Part shown: in pieces, positions 4,511-54,376 of the stretch | Layout of the letters: every line of letters starts with the position of its first letter | How positions within the stretch are numbered: position 1 is the stretch's first letter | Assembly (NCBI RefSeq): GCF_009905535.1 | Contig: NZ_JAAALA010000023.1 | Coordinates: forward strand, 1-64,000 | Reading direction: 5' to 3' | DNA: 64,000 nucleotides | Source of the DNA: Caulobacter sp. SLTY | Lineage (GTDB): Bacteria; Pseudomonadota; Alphaproteobacteria; Caulobacterales; Caulobacteraceae | The notes under the pieces: model-generated | What the model saw: the letters and a program-made list of their open reading frames with translations, nothing else | Databases searched by the model: none | What the model was told of the DNA's origin: nothing | Program-made: the position numbers and the translations under genes

Positions 4511-4591
4511 GGCGCTAACCTAAGCCGAAACCCGCCACTTGCGAGTTGAACAAAAAGCGAACATTGTAACCTGAACCCTCGCCCCAACGCC

Positions 4592-22548: not shown

Positions 22549-24209
22549 TAGAAATCCAGCGACCGCCCCTTGGTCTCCTTCAGCATCAGCAGGGTCGTCA
22601 GCACGCTGATGCCGGTGAAGAAGATCGGATAGGCCAGGCCCGCGTAGATGTTCCCCGTCGCCGCCACGATGGCGAAGGCGCTGAACGGCACGAAGCCGCC
22701 GACCCAGCCCGTGCCCACGTGATAGGGCAGCGACAGGGCGGTGTAGCGCACCCGCGTCGGAAACATCTCCACCAGGGCCGAGGCCTGCGGCCCATACAGC
22801 GCCGTCGCCGCGATGGTGAACACCATCAGCACGCAGAACAGACCGATGATGTTGATCCGCTCAGGGTCCGCCCCGGCCGGATAGCCGGCCTGCGTCAGCG
22901 CCGCCTTCAGCCGCCCCTCGACCCCCGCCTTCACCGTCTTCAGCGAGGCCTTGTCCAGCCCGCCGCCCTCGACGCTGACCACCTCGACCTCGCCGATCCG
23001 CACCTTGGCCACCGACCCGGCCGGAGCCGCCTCATTGTCATAGTTGATGCCGGCGTTGGCCAGGTAGCTCTTGGCGATGTCGCAGCTGGTGACGAAGGCG
23101 GTCTTGCCCACCGGATCGAACTGCAGCGAGCAGGCGTCCGGATCGGCCACCACCACCACGGGGGTGTTGCGCGCCGCCTCGGCCAGGCCCGGATTGGCGA
23201 ACTGGGTCATCAGGTGGAAGCCCGGCAAGAAGGCCAGCAGGGCCAGCACCATGCCGAACCACATCACCCACTTGCGGCCGTACCTGTCCGACAGCCAGCC
23301 GAAGAAGACATAGAGCGGGGCGCTAGCCAGGGTGACGGTCATCATCAGCCCGTTCACCGTCGCCGGCGGCACCTTCAGGAACTTCTCCATGAAGACCTGG
23401 CTGTAGAAGAAGGCGCAGTACCAGACCGCCCCTTGCGCGAACATGATGGCCACCAGGGCGACCAGCACCAGCTTCAGGTTCTTCCACTGGCCGAAGGCCT
23501 CGCGGAACGGATGCTGCGACTGCTCGCCCGCTTCCTTCAGCTTCTGGAAACTGGGGCTCTCCGACAGCTTCATCCGCATGAAGATGGAGATGGCCAGCAA
23601 ACCGGCCGACAGCAGGAAGGGCACGCGCCAGCCCCAGGCCTTGAAGGCTTCTTCGCCAACCAGGGTGCGGGTGGCCAGGATGACGCCGAGCGCGCCCAGC
23701 AGGCCCAGCGCCGCCGAGGTCTGGATCCAGCCGGTCATCAGCCCGCGTTTGTTGGCCGGCGCATGCTCGGCCACGTAGATGGCCGCCCCGCCGTACTCGC
23801 CGCCCAGGGCCGTGCCCTGCAGGATGCGCAGCACGATCAGCAGGATCGGGGCGATGATCCCGGCTTGGTTGTAGGTGGGCAACAGGCCGATGGCGAAGGT
23901 CGCCCCGCCCATCAGGGTGACGGTGATCAGGAAGGCCGCCTTGCGCCCCACCTTGTCGCCCATCCGCCCGAAGATCAGCGCCCCCAGCGGCCGGAACGCA
24001 AAGCCGGTGCCGAACAGAGCCAGGGCGGCGATCAGCCCGGCGGTCTCGTTCAGCCCGGTGAAGAAGACCTGGGAAATCACCCCGGCCAGGCTGCCGAAGA
24101 TGAAGAAGTCATACCACTCGAAGGCCGTGCCCGCCGATGAGGCCGCCACCACCGTGCGCATGGAAACAGGCGCGTCTTCCGGCGCGGCGTCGGTGGTCTG
24201 GTCGGTCAT
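22548..24209 (-). CDS. MFS transporter, metabolite:H+ symporter (ShiA/ProP-like)
   Basis: This 553-aa sugar/metabolite-porter-type MFS protein probably imports a small organic acid or osmolyte with protons. It has the MHS-family start SSAGTAFEWYDFFIFGSLAGVIS, the GRMGDKVGRKAAF loop between TM2 and TM3, RILQGTALGGEYGGAAIYVAEH in TM4-5, WGWRVPFLLS, and the second-half LSDRYGRKWVM. Between TM8 and TM9 there is a ~110-residue hydrophilic insertion (about residues 345-455 of the long frame) with two Cys, most likely periplasmic and absent from ordinary MHS carriers. GGGGGAGG lies about 6 bases from the ATG at 24209; longer in-frame ATGs exist but lack this spacing. The substrate is unknown. Confidence 0.88.
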   Translation of the reverse strand: MTDQTTDAAPEDAPVSMRTVVAASSAGTAFEWYDFFIFGSLAGVISQVFFTGLNETAGLIAALALFGTGFAFRPLGALIFGRMGDKVGRKAAFLITVTLMGGATFAIGLLPTYNQAGIIAPILLIVLRILQGTALGGEYGGAAIYVAEHAPANKRGLMTGWIQTSAALGLLGALGVILATRTLVGEEAFKAWGWRVPFLLSAGLLAISIFMRMKLSESPSFQKLKEAGEQSQHPFREAFGQWKNLKLVLVALVAIMFAQGAVWYCAFFYSQVFMEKFLKVPPATVNGLMMTVTLASAPLYVFFGWLSDRYGRKWVMWFGMVLALLAFLPGFHLMTQFANPGLAEAARNTPVVVVADPDACSLQFDPVGKTAFVTSCDIAKSYLANAGINYDNEAAPAGSVAKVRIGEVEVVSVEGGGLDKASLKTVKAGVEGRLKAALTQAGYPAGADPERINIIGLFCVLMVFTIAATALYGPQASALVEMFPTRVRYTALSLPYHVGTGWVGGFVPFSAFAIVAATGNIYAGLAYPIFFTGISVLTTLLMLKETKGRSLDF

Positions 24210-49445: not shown

Positions 49446-49888
49446 GCGCCCGTCGACCCGAAGCCGCCGGTTCCGCGCGCCGTTTCCTCCAGCGATTCCA
49501 CCGGCCGCCAGGTCGCCTGCACGACGGGCGCAATCACCATCTGGGCGATGCGGTCGCCCCGGCGGATGACGAAGGCGTCTTCGCCCAGGTTGATCAGGAT
49601 CACCTTCACCTCGCCGCGATAGTCGGCGTCGATGGTCCCCGGCGTGTTGAGGCAGGTGACGCCCGCCTTGGCCGCAAGCCCCGAGCGCGGCCGCACCTGG
49701 GCCTCGAAGCCCGGCGGCAGGGCGAAGGTCAGGCCCGTCGGCACCATGGCGCGGGCCATGGGGGCCAGGGTCAGGTCCTCATCCACCGCCGCCCGCAGGT
49801 CCATGCCGGCGGCCAGCGCCGTCTCATAGGTCGGCAGGGGCAGGCCCGCCGCGTGGGGCAGCTGTACGACGTCGATTTCAGGTGTCAC
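49439..49888 (-). CDS. dut: dUTP diphosphatase
   Basis: The trimeric enzyme hydrolyses dUTP to dUMP and pyrophosphate, keeping uracil out of DNA and supplying dTMP synthesis. All five motifs are present in the 149-aa protein: [46 protein letters not shown] and the C-terminal P-loop-like [10 protein letters not shown]. The start overlaps the coaBC stop by 4 bases, the common coaBC-dut operon. Confidence 0.97.
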
Positions 49889-51102
49889 GCCAGATCCTTC
49901 GCCACACGGTCTGCGATCTTCATCGCCACCTCGTCCTTGCCCGCCCGGTCCCAGCGCTCGACGCCGGCCCTGGAGACGATCATCACCGCATTTTCTGTTC
50001 CGCCCATGACGCCGGGCTGAGTGACATCATTGGCCACGATCCAGTCGCAGCCCTTGCGGGTCAGCTTGGCCAGGGCGTGTTTTTCGACATCGTTGGTCTC
50101 GGCCGCGAAGCCGACCACCAGTGTCGGTCGCTGCGGCGTGTGGGCGGCCAGGGTCGCGAGAATGTCGGGGTTCTCGACCAGGGTGATGGCGGGCGGGCCG
50201 TCCTTGCCCTTCTTCAGCTTGATGCCGAAGGCCTCGTCGGGGCGCCAGTCGGCCACCGCCGCGACGCAGATCGCCGCATCGGCCGGCAGGGCCGACTGAC
50301 AGGCGGCCAGCATGTCGCGGGCGCTCTCGACATCGACGCGGGTGACGCCGGCCGGGGTCGGCTGGCTGACCGGCCCGGCCACCAGGGTGACCCGCGCGCC
50401 CAGCCGGGCCAGGGCGCCGGCGATCTCGAAGCCCTGCTTGCCGCTGGAGCGGTTGGTCAGCACCCGCACCGGGTCCAGAGCCTCGGCCGTCGGGCCGGCG
50501 GTGACCAGGACGTGCTTGCCGGTCAGGGGACGACTGATTTGGGGCCCGTCCGACAGCAGGGTCATGATGGCCTGGAAGATGACGTGCGGCTCCGCCATCC
50601 GGCCAAAGCCGAATTCGCCGCAGGCCATGGCCCCCTCGTCCGGCCCGACGAAGGACACCCCATCCGCCTTCAGGGTCGCCAGGTTCCGACGGGTGGCGGC
50701 ATGCTCCCACATCCGGACGTTCATCGCCGGGGCCATCAGCACCGGCTTGTCGGTGGCCAGCAGGGTGGTGGAGGCCAGGTCTCCCGCCAGGCCATTGGCC
50801 GCCTTGGCCATCAGGTCGGCGGTGGCCGGGGCGACGACCACCAGGTCGGCGGAGCGGGAAAGCTCGATATGGCCCATCTCCGCCTCGTCGGTGAGGGAGA
50901 AGAGTTCCTGATAGACCTTGTCCTCGGCCAGGGCTGACAGGGACAACGGGGTGACGAACTGGGCGCCCGACGCGGTGAGGATCGGCCGCACGCCGACCCC
51001 CGCCTTGCGCAGCAGCCGGGTCAGCTCCAGCGCCTTGTAGGCGGCGATCCCGCCGCCCACGATCAGCAAAACCCGCCGTTCGGTCAAAGCCAGCTCCAAC
51101 AA
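49885..51102 (-). CDS. coaBC: Bifunctional phosphopantothenoylcysteine synthetase/decarboxylase
   Basis: CoaBC performs two steps of coenzyme A synthesis. The N-terminal flavoprotein decarboxylase (1-190) has [32 protein letters not shown], the [12 protein letters not shown] active-site motif and the catalytic Cys of [14 protein letters not shown]. The C-terminal synthetase (190-405) has [26 protein letters not shown] and DWIVANDVT. Length 405 aa is usual. It is divergent from the IS1595-type transposon, which begins 83 bases upstream of its start. Confidence 0.97.
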
Positions 51103-51176
51103 TCCTCGGGCCTTCCTAACCAGTTTGCACGCGGCGCCAAACAGGACTCGACAATGTTCACGTTTTGATCTTATCG

Positions 51177-51184
51177 TTCATGGA
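51177..51184 (+). repeat. Left target-site duplication of the transposon
   Basis: TTCATGGA, identical to 53769-53776 on the other side of the element. Exactly 8 bases, as expected for IS1595-family insertion. Confidence 0.93.
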
Positions 51185-51208
51185 GGCGATTATGCACTTT
51201 ACATACCA
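51185..51208 (+). repeat. Left terminal inverted repeat (IRL)
   Basis: 24 bases, starting GGCGATTATGCACTTTA and ending ATACCA; complementary to the right end with one mismatch at position 18. Confidence 0.93.
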
Positions 51209-51250
51209 TCATTGATTTGATAGGGTTTTCTCACTGGAGAGAGCCTACCC

Positions 51251-52204
51251 ATGTCCGCCCCCCTCACTGACCCCATCTTCCACGATGAAGACGCCGCCCG
51301 CGCCCACTTTGAGGCGCTTCGCTGGCCGAATGGGCGGGTTTGTCCGCATTGCGGCGTAGAGGGCAATTCCACTCTCATGCAGGGCAAGACTACTCGCCCC
51401 GGCCTCTACAAGTGCAAGGAGAAGGAGTGCCGCAAGCCCTTCTCCGCCACCATGGGGACCCTGTACGAGAAGTCCCATATCCCGCTGCACAAGTGGCTGC
51501 TGGCCACGCACCTGATGTGCTCCAGCAAGAAGGGTATCAGCGCTCACCAGCTGTTCCGGATGCTCGGGTTTGGCTCCTATCGGACGGCCTGGTTCATGGC
51601 TCACCGCATCCGCGAAGCTATGCGGGAAGGCGATCTTGGCCCGTTCGGAATGGGCGGCGCGACCGTGGAAGTTGACGAGACATTTCTTGGAACCGACCCG
51701 GACTATGTTCAGGAAGCCAAGCGCGGTTCAGTGCACGGGAAAATGAAAGTTCTGACCCTGGTGGAGCGCGAAACTGGCCGCGCCCGCTCCTTCGTCGTGG
51801 ACAAGCTGACCATCAACGACATTGTGCCGGTGGTGGAAGCCAACCTCTCCCGTGAGGCCCGCCTGATGACCGACGAGAGCAAACTCTACGTCGAAATGGG
51901 CAAGGCCGTCCGCGACCACCAGAGCGTCAAGCACAACGAAGGCGAATACGTCCGCCGCAATCAACCGACCGTCCACACGAACACGATTGAAGGCTTCTTC
52001 TCGATTTTCAAACGCGGCATGCGCGGCGTCTATCAGCACAGCAGCAAGAAGCACTTGCACCGCTATCTGGCGGAGTTTGATTTCCGCTACAGCTACCGTG
52101 TCGCCCTTGGCGTGAATGACACCCAGCGCGCGGCTATCGCGGTGTCCAACGTCGTTGGCAAGCGCCTCACTTATCAAAGACCTCAAGTGCAAACGGCAAG
52201 CTAA
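51251..52204 (+). CDS. IS1595-family transposase
   Basis: The 317-aa product has an N-terminal zinc ribbon (CPHCG at 35-39 and a second pair in YKCKEKECRKPF) as in the IS1595 zinc-binding domain, a helix-turn-helix region (ISAHQLFRMLGFGSYRTAWFMAHRIREAM), and the ISXO2-like DDE domain with D in ATVEVDETFLG, D in LMTDESKLY and E in VHTNTIEGFFSIFK, followed by YLAEFDFRYSYR. All catalytic residues are intact and no stop or frameshift interrupts it, so the element may be active. GGAGAGAG lies about 10 bases upstream of the ATG. Confidence 0.95.
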   Translation: MSAPLTDPIFHDEDAARAHFEALRWPNGRVCPHCGVEGNSTLMQGKTTRPGLYKCKEKECRKPFSATMGTLYEKSHIPLHKWLLATHLMCSSKKGISAHQLFRMLGFGSYRTAWFMAHRIREAMREGDLGPFGMGGATVEVDETFLGTDPDYVQEAKRGSVHGKMKVLTLVERETGRARSFVVDKLTINDIVPVVEANLSREARLMTDESKLYVEMGKAVRDHQSVKHNEGEYVRRNQPTVHTNTIEGFFSIFKRGMRGVYQHSSKKHLHRYLAEFDFRYSYRVALGVNDTQRAAIAVSNVVGKRLTYQRPQVQTAS

Positions 52205-52529
52205 ACGGCCGGGATACCGGCTTAGCGCGCGGTGGCGAACCAAGGCTTAGGGTCAAGGCCTGGGCAAAGCTTTAGGCTTGACGGACTCGTCAACGCACCG
52301 GCAAATACGGCCAAGGAAAAGGGGCCGAGCCTTTCGACCCGACCCCTTCCCCACACCGAATGCCGCCACCGGACTTTTAGCGACTGCGAGCCGTACCGAG
52401 TTTGCCCCTCAGTACGGCCCTCCAAACCGACAACGAATCACCGGCGCCGTGGGTCAACCCTACGGCGCCGTTTTCGCGACCGTCTAGGGTTAACAACCTG
52501 CTACTAGCTGACTAACGCACAGTAGAAAC
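52205..52529. other. Structured noncoding stretch inside the transposon
   Basis: No convincing gene lies in these 325 bases. At least three stem-loops are present: AAAAGGGG pairing imperfectly with CCCCTTCC near 52318-52350, GCCGTAC (52390-52396) with GTACGGC (52412-52418), and a strong terminator at 52442-52474. A small RNA ending at that terminator is possible. The stretch could also be just a long 3' untranslated region of the transposase transcript. Confidence 0.5.
52442..52474 (+). terminator. Rho-independent terminator on the plus strand in the transposon
   Basis: CGGCGCCGT and ACGGCGCCG form a perfect 9-bp stem with an 11-base loop, followed directly by TTTT. It lies 238 bases after the transposase stop, leaving room for a separate noncoding transcript. 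Confidence 0.7.
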
Positions 52530-52724
52530 TTAACTCTGTGGAGAAGTCCTCAAGGCTTTTTCCTGAGAAGCCTTTTCGCGCTTCCGCTTGGCTGTCTCGG
52601 CGAGAGTTTCGCGAGGCTTCGAAAGCATGATCCGGGTGACTTGGTCCCGCCGTCTAGCGGCCTCTTCTTCCGAGAAGATTTCGGGGTCATCGGGCGGTGT
52701 GGATTCCATTTTCATGGCCCCCAT
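52530..52724 (-). CDS. 64-aa hypothetical passenger protein
   Basis: The small acidic-then-basic protein has MKMESTPPDDPEIFSEEEAA, followed by RRRDQVTRIMLSKPRETLAE and a Lys-rich tail. The 'FSEEEAARRRDxxxRxMLxxP' pattern resembles small hypothetical proteins frequent on plasmids and mobile elements of Alphaproteobacteria; I know no function. The first ATG (52724) has no clear ribosome site; the ATG five codons in has GGGGG about 8 bases upstream and may be the real start. On the strand opposite to the transposase. Confidence 0.55.
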   Translation of the reverse strand: MGAMKMESTPPDDPEIFSEEEAARRRDQVTRIMLSKPRETLAETAKRKREKASQEKALRTSPQS

Positions 52725-52909
52725 GCTAAGAGGCTTACGCCCCCGCCGCTAGGCGGGAGCGCAGAGGCCCGTTGTCATATTCTCATGTGCCACCTGCCTC
52801 CGGCGCCGCGCCAACGGAGCCGCCCTCTGGGGAATTAGAGCTGAAGGGACCCCCGGCCTCATGGTCGGGGGTTTCCGCTTTCGCGGAACCTGTATCGGCA
52901 AAGGCCGAA

Positions 52910-53620
52910 TTACTTTGAGCCATTCGACGCCCCCGGAAAGAGCGTGATGTTCTCGGATGGAAGGTCGCTGGCCATGTCGGGCAACTTGTAGCGACCGTTT
53001 TCGGCGACCAGCAACGCACGCTGCTTCATCTTGGACAGGTGCGTGCGGACCAGGGCCGGGTTGCGGTTGGCCACCTCCCGAGTGTCCGGATGACGCTGTA
53101 GCGCAGAGATGACACCTGCCGGCGAGAGCGAACCGCCGTGCGCCCCAATAACCTCCAAGATGTACTTCGGCATGCTGATCCGCCCCTCTTCTTCGGGAGG
53201 GGCGGCTTCGTCGATCTCGCCGGATTGGATCTTGGCGTAAGTCTCAGGCGCGTAAAAGCGCTTCCCGACCTTCACAAGCTCCCCGCCAACTTCCATCGCC
53301 TTGATGGTGTTATAGTAGCCGTTAGGGGAGATTTCGAAGCGCTCTCCGAACTCCGTCCCCTGTGCCAACTCCACAAACTCCGCTTTGGTCAGGTAGCCTT
53401 GCTTGGTGCGAAGGGCGGTGCTGATGAACTCCCGCCACGTTCGGGGCTCTCGCTTGACCTTGCCTGCGTAAGCTGGAGCCAAGGGCTCATTGGCAGGAAC
53501 CGCCTCTACAGCGGTGGTGCCAAGCAGCCGGGCAATTGCGCTCCGGTCGGCGCGGACCTCGGCCAACTCGGCGACTAGGCGCGCTTCGCGGATCGCTAAT
53601 TCAGCGTCCTTGTCTAACAT
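52910..53620 (-). CDS. Passenger protein with two winged-helix-like domains
   Basis: The product has 236 aa from the ATG at 53620, which has GAGGGG six bases upstream; the frame opens at 53662 (14 more residues). An N-terminal coiled-coil helix (KDAELAIREARLVAELAEVR...) is followed by a segment (about 75-135: LTKAEFVELAQGTEFGERF... YNTIKAMEVGGELVKVGKRFYAPE) and a second (about 160-225: PKYILEVIGAHGGSLSPAGVISALQRHPDT... VRTHLSKMKQRALLVAENGRYKLP), both with the helix-helix-wing pattern of winged-helix or HARE-HTH domains. It probably binds DNA; whether it regulates transposition or is cargo is unknown. It lies entirely inside the element. Confidence 0.7.
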   Translation of the reverse strand: MLDKDAELAIREARLVAELAEVRADRSAIARLLGTTAVEAVPANEPLAPAYAGKVKREPRTWREFISTALRTKQGYLTKAEFVELAQGTEFGERFEISPNGYYNTIKAMEVGGELVKVGKRFYAPETYAKIQSGEIDEAAPPEEEGRISMPKYILEVIGAHGGSLSPAGVISALQRHPDTREVANRNPALVRTHLSKMKQRALLVAENGRYKLPDMASDLPSENITLFPGASNGSK

Positions 53621-53744
53621 GACGCGCCCCTCGGGCGAGTCGGGTAAGATGATCGCGGCCATGGGGGACTCATGCCATATGCCCCGCCCCTGGGGAAGTG
53701 GGGGTCATACATATTTCTGTTCACTTGGCGTTCTTTCTGCAACT

Positions 53745-53768
53745 TGGTATCTAAAGTGCATAATCGCC
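53745..53768 (-). repeat. Right terminal inverted repeat (IRR)
   Basis: 24 bases; its complement begins GGCGATTATGCACTTTA and ends ATACCA, as the left end, with G for C at position 18. Confidence 0.93.
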
Positions 53769-53776
53769 TTCATGGA
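53769..53776 (+). repeat. Right target-site duplication of the transposon
   Basis: TTCATGGA, matching the copy left of the element. Removing the element and one copy gives the inferred empty site reading from ...CTTATCG through TTCATGGA into ACGCCGATCC. Confidence 0.93.
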
Positions 53777-53806: not shown

Positions 53807-54376
53807 ATGTCCCGCATTCTTATGGCCGCCTCTGCGGTCGCCGCCCTGTTCGCCCTGGCCGCCTGTGACGGTGGACCGGCCAGCAAGCCCTCTCGTGATC
53901 AGGCGGAGGCCGGCGGTTCGCCCGCCTCGCCCAGCGACGCGGGAGTCGAGACCGCCTCAAGCGCCATCGACGGCGAGGCGCCGAAGACCGATCCGCGCAC
54001 CCAGCCGGCCAGGATGCTGGACGGGGCGCCCATCTGGGCCGCCAACCGCCGGCTGACCGCCGAGGAGGCCGCCCAACGCCAGTTCACCCGCAACGGCGCC
54101 GACTTCGGCGCCAAGTCGGTCGAGGACTACGCCCGCCAGGCCCGCGCCTTCGTCAACAAGCCGCCGTCCGGGGCGGAGACCATCACCCGCCGCAACGGCG
54201 ACAAGCTGATCTATGACGAGAAGAGCAATGTCTTCGCCGTGGCCACCAAGGACGGGGTGCCGCGCACCATGTTCAAGCCCGAGGAAGGCCCCAGCTATTG
54301 GCAGGAGGCCAAGGTCAGGGCTGAGCAGGGCCCGCGTCGCAATCGCGAAGGCCGGGACCGGGAGGATCGGGGCTGA
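53807..54376 (+). CDS. Lipoprotein with toxin-nuclease-like C-terminal domain
   Basis: The 189-aa product has a lipoprotein signal with lipobox LAAC (Cys at about 20), a long disordered linker, then about 95-165: VEDYARQARAFVNKPPSGAETITRRNGDKLIYDEKSNVFAVATKDGVPRTMFKPEEGPSYWQEAK. The 'G..L.YD...N.FAV...DG.PRTMFKP..G..YW' pattern recurs at the C-termini of polymorphic or contact-dependent toxins of the barnase/EndoU/colicin E5-like (BECR) class; I recall the pattern but could not search for it. GGGGGAG lies 10 bases before the ATG. The transposon inserted 31 bases upstream, so its original promoter is displaced. Confidence 0.75.
   Translation: MSRILMAASAVAALFALAACDGGPASKPSRDQAEAGGSPASPSDAGVETASSAIDGEAPKTDPRTQPARMLDGAPIWAANRRLTAEEAAQRQFTRNGADFGAKSVEDYARQARAFVNKPPSGAETITRRNGDKLIYDEKSNVFAVATKDGVPRTMFKPEEGPSYWQEAKVRAEQGPRRNREGRDREDRG

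Follow-up and report, generated by a model that had tools for sequence, protein, structure and literature searches.

The 64,000-nt stretch of Caulobacter sp. SLTY analyzed here (contig NZ_JAAALA010000023.1, positions 1 to 64,000; "the window") contains an intact IS1595-family transposon with passenger genes (tIS), a kind of element already known, which spans 51185-53768 (2584 bp). The clade to which it belongs very probably recognizes LexA operators, or LexA bound to them, as insertion targets, and the window copy likely used this route in entering an SOS-type promoter between coaBC and a small lipoprotein gene. That the element is a tIS whose clade targets LexA operators, and that this copy arrived in that way, is together the explanation we favor and consider probable.

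Relatives were collected by a scan that detected 428, of which the best 80 were kept; with the window, this gave 81 loci that were searched for transposon ends. Thirteen loci had no reliable end pair and were left out (four were judged spurious: L072, L081, L125, and L126), leaving 68 delimited elements. Two later sets, mostly more distant, added 18 and 27 for a total of 113 distinct elements (29 of 49 and 10 of 39 copies in these sets had no ends and were not counted, and four duplicates were removed).

When unoccupied sites were listed, GAAC-N7-GAAC repeats appeared beside many insertions, and among 4-mer direct repeats spaced 7 bp apart near the insertions, GAAC/GTTC was the most frequent (13/68). 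The LexA motif published for Caulobacter is GTTC-N7-GTTC (PMC9578287, Table 1; PMC12700426; both in the excerpts available). Of the 68 insertions, 17 have an exact box of this form within 80 bp, where the background of 14 boxes in 800 kb predicts 0.003 per element. Within 30 bp the number is 13, compared with 0.06 expected at random and 0.08 in a GC-matched control; with up to one mismatch allowed, it is 18/68 against 2.1. Over all 113 elements, 17 have an exact box within 30 bp (13/68, 2/18, and 2/27 by set) where 0.13 would be expected, the latter figure being the GC-matched control of the first set scaled up. The 15 non-overlapping boxes all have the same polarity, 10 to the right and 5 to the left of the element. 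Their spacing is exactly 4 bp in eight elements, and in two more the duplication falls inside the box; at L060, where the scripted boundaries were shifted, the spacing by eye is nearer 7 bp than the scripted 14. Because a sizeable minority of insertions lies at operators, with a fixed polarity and a preferred spacing, operator targeting by the clade is well supported at the level of sequence comparison.

RecA and LexA are classical SOS genes, and both are found among the neighbors. Apart from L075, the elements with a box within 80 bp (16 of the 17) had their adjoining open reading frames (ORFs) scanned, usually on a single side; these ORFs include recA (L123, L130), lexA (L060), S24 peptidases (L109, L076), a PA0069 radical SAM protein (L058, L059), an Mg-chelatase/ComM-like protein (L082), and DUF5131 (L088); the remainder gave no match or a gene with no known SOS link. 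For neighbors other than recA and lexA, any SOS status is presumed. In a tree of the 81 transposases, box-associated insertions occur in several clades; the tree also contains a large clade with AGG-N8-CCT targets and one, characterized by the small gene p46 (see below), without exact boxes, although some p46 elements outside the tree do have them.

The window copy itself lacks an exact box in the 30 bp next to its duplication. The left-flank box, GTTCACGTTTTGATC, has GATC as its second half, a single mismatch, and the polarity seen in the clade. All 31 genus relatives examined have a LexA box upstream of coaBC (28 exact, 3 with one mismatch), and a match to the lipoprotein gene adjoins coaBC in many genus relatives. 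The promoter-like pair spanning the window box is near chance level, with one found against a mean of 0.7 in shuffled sequences. The coaBC locus was fetched from 30 other genomes of the genus and from G191, some stretches being short (contig ends), and only that of G191 includes a transposase match; the closest relatives are among those without one. Two of these, G582 and G047, are about 94% identical to the window in the fetched part of CoaBC. They can be taken to represent the unoccupied site, since they share the left flank almost to the duplication and then continue, with similar spacing, to the lipoprotein start. The empty site that the earlier note suggested looking for is thus seen, but without the single octamer expected there, which has drifted. 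Three further exact GTTC-N7-GTTC/GAAC-N7-GAAC boxes are present in the window outside the element, at 4548, 5279, and 27972.

In G191, a member of the same genus, an element whose transposase is 60% identical to that of the window occupies the same site in the opposite orientation, 5 bp from an exact box, with the box at its cargo end. The script did not delimit this element (locus L137), which is not counted among the 113 and whose 7-8 bp duplication was read by eye. The G191 insertion is, judging by these sequences, independent of that in the window. A single ancient insertion, later inverted and diverged, seems improbable to us: the two sites are within about 1 bp of each other (by eye), and both elements carry relatives of the cargo gene p250, but the 30 other genomes, including those 94% identical in the CoaBC part, lack a transposase match at the locus, the two p250 proteins are only 28% identical, one element has p46 and the other the unrelated small gene p64, and the duplications differ.

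A mechanism can be proposed in which a complex of transposase and transposon ends would dock on LexA-bound operator DNA, with the ends then being joined to DNA lying 0-14 bp beyond the 3′ end of GTTC-N7-GTTC. Such an insertion would put the transposase gene (in the window) or the cargo (in G191) downstream of a damage-inducible promoter. With the host promoter damage-inducible and p250 possessing its own LexA box, both transposition and cargo expression would be predicted to rise with DNA damage. More tentatively, the SOS repressor at its operator might be a docking platform by which transposase and a swappable, sometimes defense-like cargo are wired into the damage response, with p64 and p46 as regulatory or target-assisting partners.

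Several observations argue against operator targeting, or limit it. No exact box lies within 30 bp of 96 of the 113 elements, and the two later sets, of more distant relatives, show less enrichment (4/45). Four of the 68 elements have exact boxes only at 24-47 bp, three of these with reversed polarity; in L057, L058, and L059, which belong to the window's own clade, the only exact boxes are at 24, 26, and 39 bp. One subclade favors AGG-N8-CCT targets instead (15/68), the Poisson comparison ignores shared ancestry (e.g., L075/L076 and L113/L119), and no pair of genomes, one carrying and one lacking this particular copy, was found. Since 3% of 68-bp control windows (794/26,200) contain a box with up to one mismatch, the window copy alone proves little. 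The many copies without a nearby box would also be expected of an ordinary IS1595 tIS entering AT-rich intergenic DNA, with SOS promoters merely being AT-rich and tolerated as sites; the duplications are 31% GC against 65% in the flanks (61 elements), and IS1595 occurrences are reported in PMC9208149 to be overrepresented between genes. We regard this as quite unlikely, however: the control of 0.08 boxes, against 13 seen, comes from flank windows of matched or lower GC, a tenfold higher expectation still gives a p of about 1e-13 for the 113, and the uniform polarity and recurrent 4-bp spacing suggest that an oriented object is being recognized.

Selection rather than targeting is another possibility, unlikely in our view but a little less so: insertion could be random, with copies beside LexA operators surviving through the benefit of having transposase or cargo under SOS control. 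Inside the elements, outside the transposase gene, exact boxes are about five times as dense as in the flanks (11 in 118 kb against 14 in 800 kb), and some of them are positioned between the left end and the transposase. On the other hand, either transposon end can face the external box, so that the gene brought under the promoter is not always the same one, and exact spacing would be hard to reach through selection alone. As to these inner boxes, in L089, L123, and L130 an exact box precedes the transposase, about 30 bp in from the left end; the left junction of L130 itself forms an exact box.

Some other features of the sites can be recorded here. In the AGG-N8-CCT subclade, which includes L093, L114, L128, and L134, most elements have ends of their own beginning with CC, often CCTA, so that the target resembles the transposon tip. 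By eye, L274, L278, L284, and L289 are centered in CTCC-N8-GGAG-like palindromes, and L267 and L287 in CACTGTG-N8-CACAGTG-like ones. At L042 two clade elements adjoin each other, one of them 0 bp from an exact LexA box. L091 is on a contig labeled Oceanobacillus (Bacillota), though the clade is otherwise alphaproteobacterial; the contig may be misassigned.

The anatomy of the window element (Table 1) is that of a complete IS1595-family transposon with target duplication and extra genes, as the earlier note had proposed; transposase profiles, ends, and flanks agree. An 8-bp target duplication is typical of the family, as are terminal inverted repeats, and both are present: the 24-bp ends match at 23 positions and are flanked by identical copies of the octamer TTCATGGA, which occurs nowhere else on the + strand of the window (its reverse complement is found once more, at 23386). 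In the assembly (4.08 Mb, 87 contigs) the element is single-copy, and its only genome-wide matches other than itself are its own two ends, which excludes the alternative, raised earlier, that the octamer belongs to a longer native repeat. Its GC content is 0.60, against 0.68 for the window. Recent movement, also proposed earlier, is plausible but not established: the element is single-copy, no pair of strains differing in its presence was found, and the closest transposase found is 70% identical.

Table 1. Features of the element and its surroundings, in window coordinates.
Feature	Position	Strand	Basis
Host gene coaBC, divergent neighbor	49885..51102	-	TIGR00521 3.4e-122
Promoter-like TCGACA-18-TATCGT spanning the box, reading into the transposase gene	51148..51177	+	Consensus only, weak
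Host LexA-box-like operator GTTC-N7-GATC, 6 bp from duplication	51156..51170	+	One mismatch to GTTC-N7-GTTC
Target duplication, left copy, TTCATGGA	51177..51184	.
Left terminal inverted repeat	51185..51208	+	23/24 match
IS1595-family transposase, 317 aa, zinc ribbon and DDE domain	51251..52204	+	Profile matches, 81-row alignment
p64, small core gene of the clade, antisense to transposase	52530..52724	-	Motif RRDEVxxRMLxTPPxP
p250, variable cargo, 250 aa; long N-terminal helix (low confidence, perhaps coiled coil) and two winged-helix domains	52910..53662	-
Exact LexA box inside element, 56 bp upstream of p250 start as used here	53719..53733	-
Right terminal inverted repeat	53745..53768	-
Target duplication, right copy, TTCATGGA	53769..53776	.
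Host gene, small predicted lipoprotein	53808..54376	+	Lipobox by eye; no family above cut-off in Pfam or NCBIfam

The transposase ORF matches PF12762 (6.6e-32), PF12760 (1.4e-13), and NF033547 (5e-57), well above the curated cut-offs. D142, D208, E247, K254, H263, and H268 do not vary across the 81 aligned transposases, and N244 is present in 98%; we take these seven to be catalytic, and the conservation bears out the earlier claim that the catalytic residues are kept. The zinc-ribbon cysteines C31, C34, C55, and C60 are likewise found in all 81. Three transposases with an internal stop (L072, L097, L123) were retained in the alignment and tree, the stop being entered as X.

Full 8/8 target duplications flank 62 of the 68 delimited elements. 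These 68 range from 1958 to 4157 bp, and in every one the right-hand part holds about 0.9-3.2 kb of non-transposase DNA; the shortest element in a further set is 1921 bp. That some IS1595 members carry passengers, as the note had it, is true of a known kind of element, but in this clade extra DNA is the rule, since none of the 68 (window included) is shorter than 1958 bp.

The 64-aa gene, p64, had been listed among the passengers. It proves instead to be a near-constant part of the clade: an iterated profile seeded with p64 has matches inside 53 of the 68 elements at an expectation value (E) under 1e-3, or 56 with E under 1. All are on the strand opposite to the transposase, and 812 kb of flanks from the same loci gave none. 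(The window p64 scores 3e-9 against this profile, which was seeded from that same sequence.) Mean entropy by codon position in the family, whose rows were picked by protein similarity, is 0.88, 0.71, and 1.56 for positions 1, 2, and 3; with positions 1 and 2 conserved and position 3 variable, the ORF is judged to be a real protein-coding gene. No family was found for it in Pfam or NCBIfam; of six relatives, none matched Pfam, and two had NCBIfam matches, below cut-off, at E 0.04-0.05. The AlphaFold model consists of two helices (mean predicted local distance difference test score (pLDDT) 77.9, predicted template modeling score (pTM) 0.36). In the host's class there are 37 matches at E ≤ 1e-3, 22 of which (counted by hand) adjoin a transposase; of the other 15, three are near a transposase fragment, five more have one end-like sequence within about 1.1 kb (by a loose threshold, with no control), and seven are unexplained.

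Among the 12 elements without any p64 match, 10 (L079, L086, L090, L091, L103, L106, L108, L111, L116, L122) have p46, an unrelated small acidic/lysine-rich gene in the sense direction, with the motif KFKEAARELExDDDEERFEEKLKK. In the 27 further elements p64 is found in 5, p46 in 13, and neither in 9; the two never occur together in a delimited element. One p46 match lies outside a delimited element, at L263, whose region holds a second copy; the G191 element also carries p46. No LexA box was found upstream of p64 (0/56). We read p64 and p46 as a second core component of clade elements, without a curated family. p64 is probably a helper or regulator and may be needed for transposition. It cannot be the sole target selector, since the box-adjacent L263, L271, and G191 elements have p46 and L129 has neither. 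A role as antitoxin for each cargo was rejected as its main function, as p64 stays while the cargo changes.

The opposite-strand gene is confirmed, although its ORF is 250 aa rather than 236; the shorter form begins at an internal Met. Two winged-helix-like domains are seen in the AlphaFold model of p250 (mean pLDDT 68.9, pTM 0.35, from a three-row alignment); the helix at 10-46 is of low confidence, and the winged helices (about 76-138 and 164-227) have block pLDDT values of mostly 75-90. No family was found in Pfam or NCBIfam, nor any Foldseek match at E ≤ 0.001. In VIA-align comparison, solved structures matched mostly the second winged helix, at Z scores of about 9-11; as this is a common fold and the first was barely covered, no function is read from these matches. 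An Abi or antitoxin assignment was not adopted, an AbiEi antitoxin appearing only at rank 50 in Foldseek (E 0.11). Pattern scans of genome and viral contigs, and tblastn in plasmids, found no homologs. Matches to p250 are found in 3 of 199 genomes of the host's family and, by the three-row profile, 2 of 385 of its class (the window's own included in each, the other class match weak, at 3.6e-4). Since among the 68 delimited elements it is confined to that of the window, it appears unlikely to be needed for transposition.

The p250 relative in G191 is in a 4.1-kb IS1595 element, beside a 204-aa ORF that we take, by eye, for an NYN nuclease. Cargo varies between elements, and some of it appears defense- or toxin-like: for the 104 cargo ORFs that are 120 aa or longer, Pfam matches at E ≤ 0.01 include DUF3800 in nine, PIN, NYN, D12 methyltransferase, DUF5343, and DUF4145 in two each, and Abi_2, SocA/Panacea, IrrE-like M78, and HNH in one each, and PADLOC identified two members each of PD-Lambda-5 A and B. 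Many ORFs in a 21-member cargo cluster, formed partly through ORF starts overlapping p64, have an R-N-x3-H motif by eye, which presumably resembles that of HEPN ribonucleases.

The rulAB genes are linked to damage tolerance. Integron-like elements in rulB (PMC4542609; this and the sources below in the excerpts available) are likewise mobile DNA with a damage-related target, but integrate site-specifically in one gene, whereas a DDE transposase and the operators of several genes are involved here. SOS-regulated integron integrases (PMC3108266) also couple a mobility gene to LexA; there LexA controls the integrase promoter, while in the present case its operator serves mainly as the site of insertion. 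Tn7-like transposons guided by protein target selectors (PMC10293859) would be similar if a DNA-bound host protein or site guides adjacent insertion, but have another transposase family (no Tns or TniQ family is among the Pfam matches of the three ORFs of the window element), and the mechanism here is proposed by inference. Closest in structure are tISCpe8 and tISSag10/MTnSag1 (PMC5704250), which also have an IS1595 DDE transposase and extra genes between inverted ends; those are lincomycin-resistance and mobilizable elements, in contrast to the antisense p64, winged-helix cargo, and LexA-operator sites found here. Operator targeting is not mentioned for tIS elements in the available text of PMC5704250, nor is LexA-operator targeting in that of PMC6209633, PMC6382973, or PMC9208149, and the listings of the literature searches gave no earlier description of it. 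The habit looks new.

Low target specificity is said to hold for the large majority of insertion sequences (PMC6382973, in part). Repeated landing at LexA operators, those of recA and lexA among them, with one polarity and a preferred spacing, would tie target choice directly to the repressor of a stress response, and would explain how cargo could become damage-inducible on arrival. It poses a simple, testable question: is the LexA protein or the operator DNA the target? The recurrent p64 and p46 genes, without a curated family, offer a second component to study.

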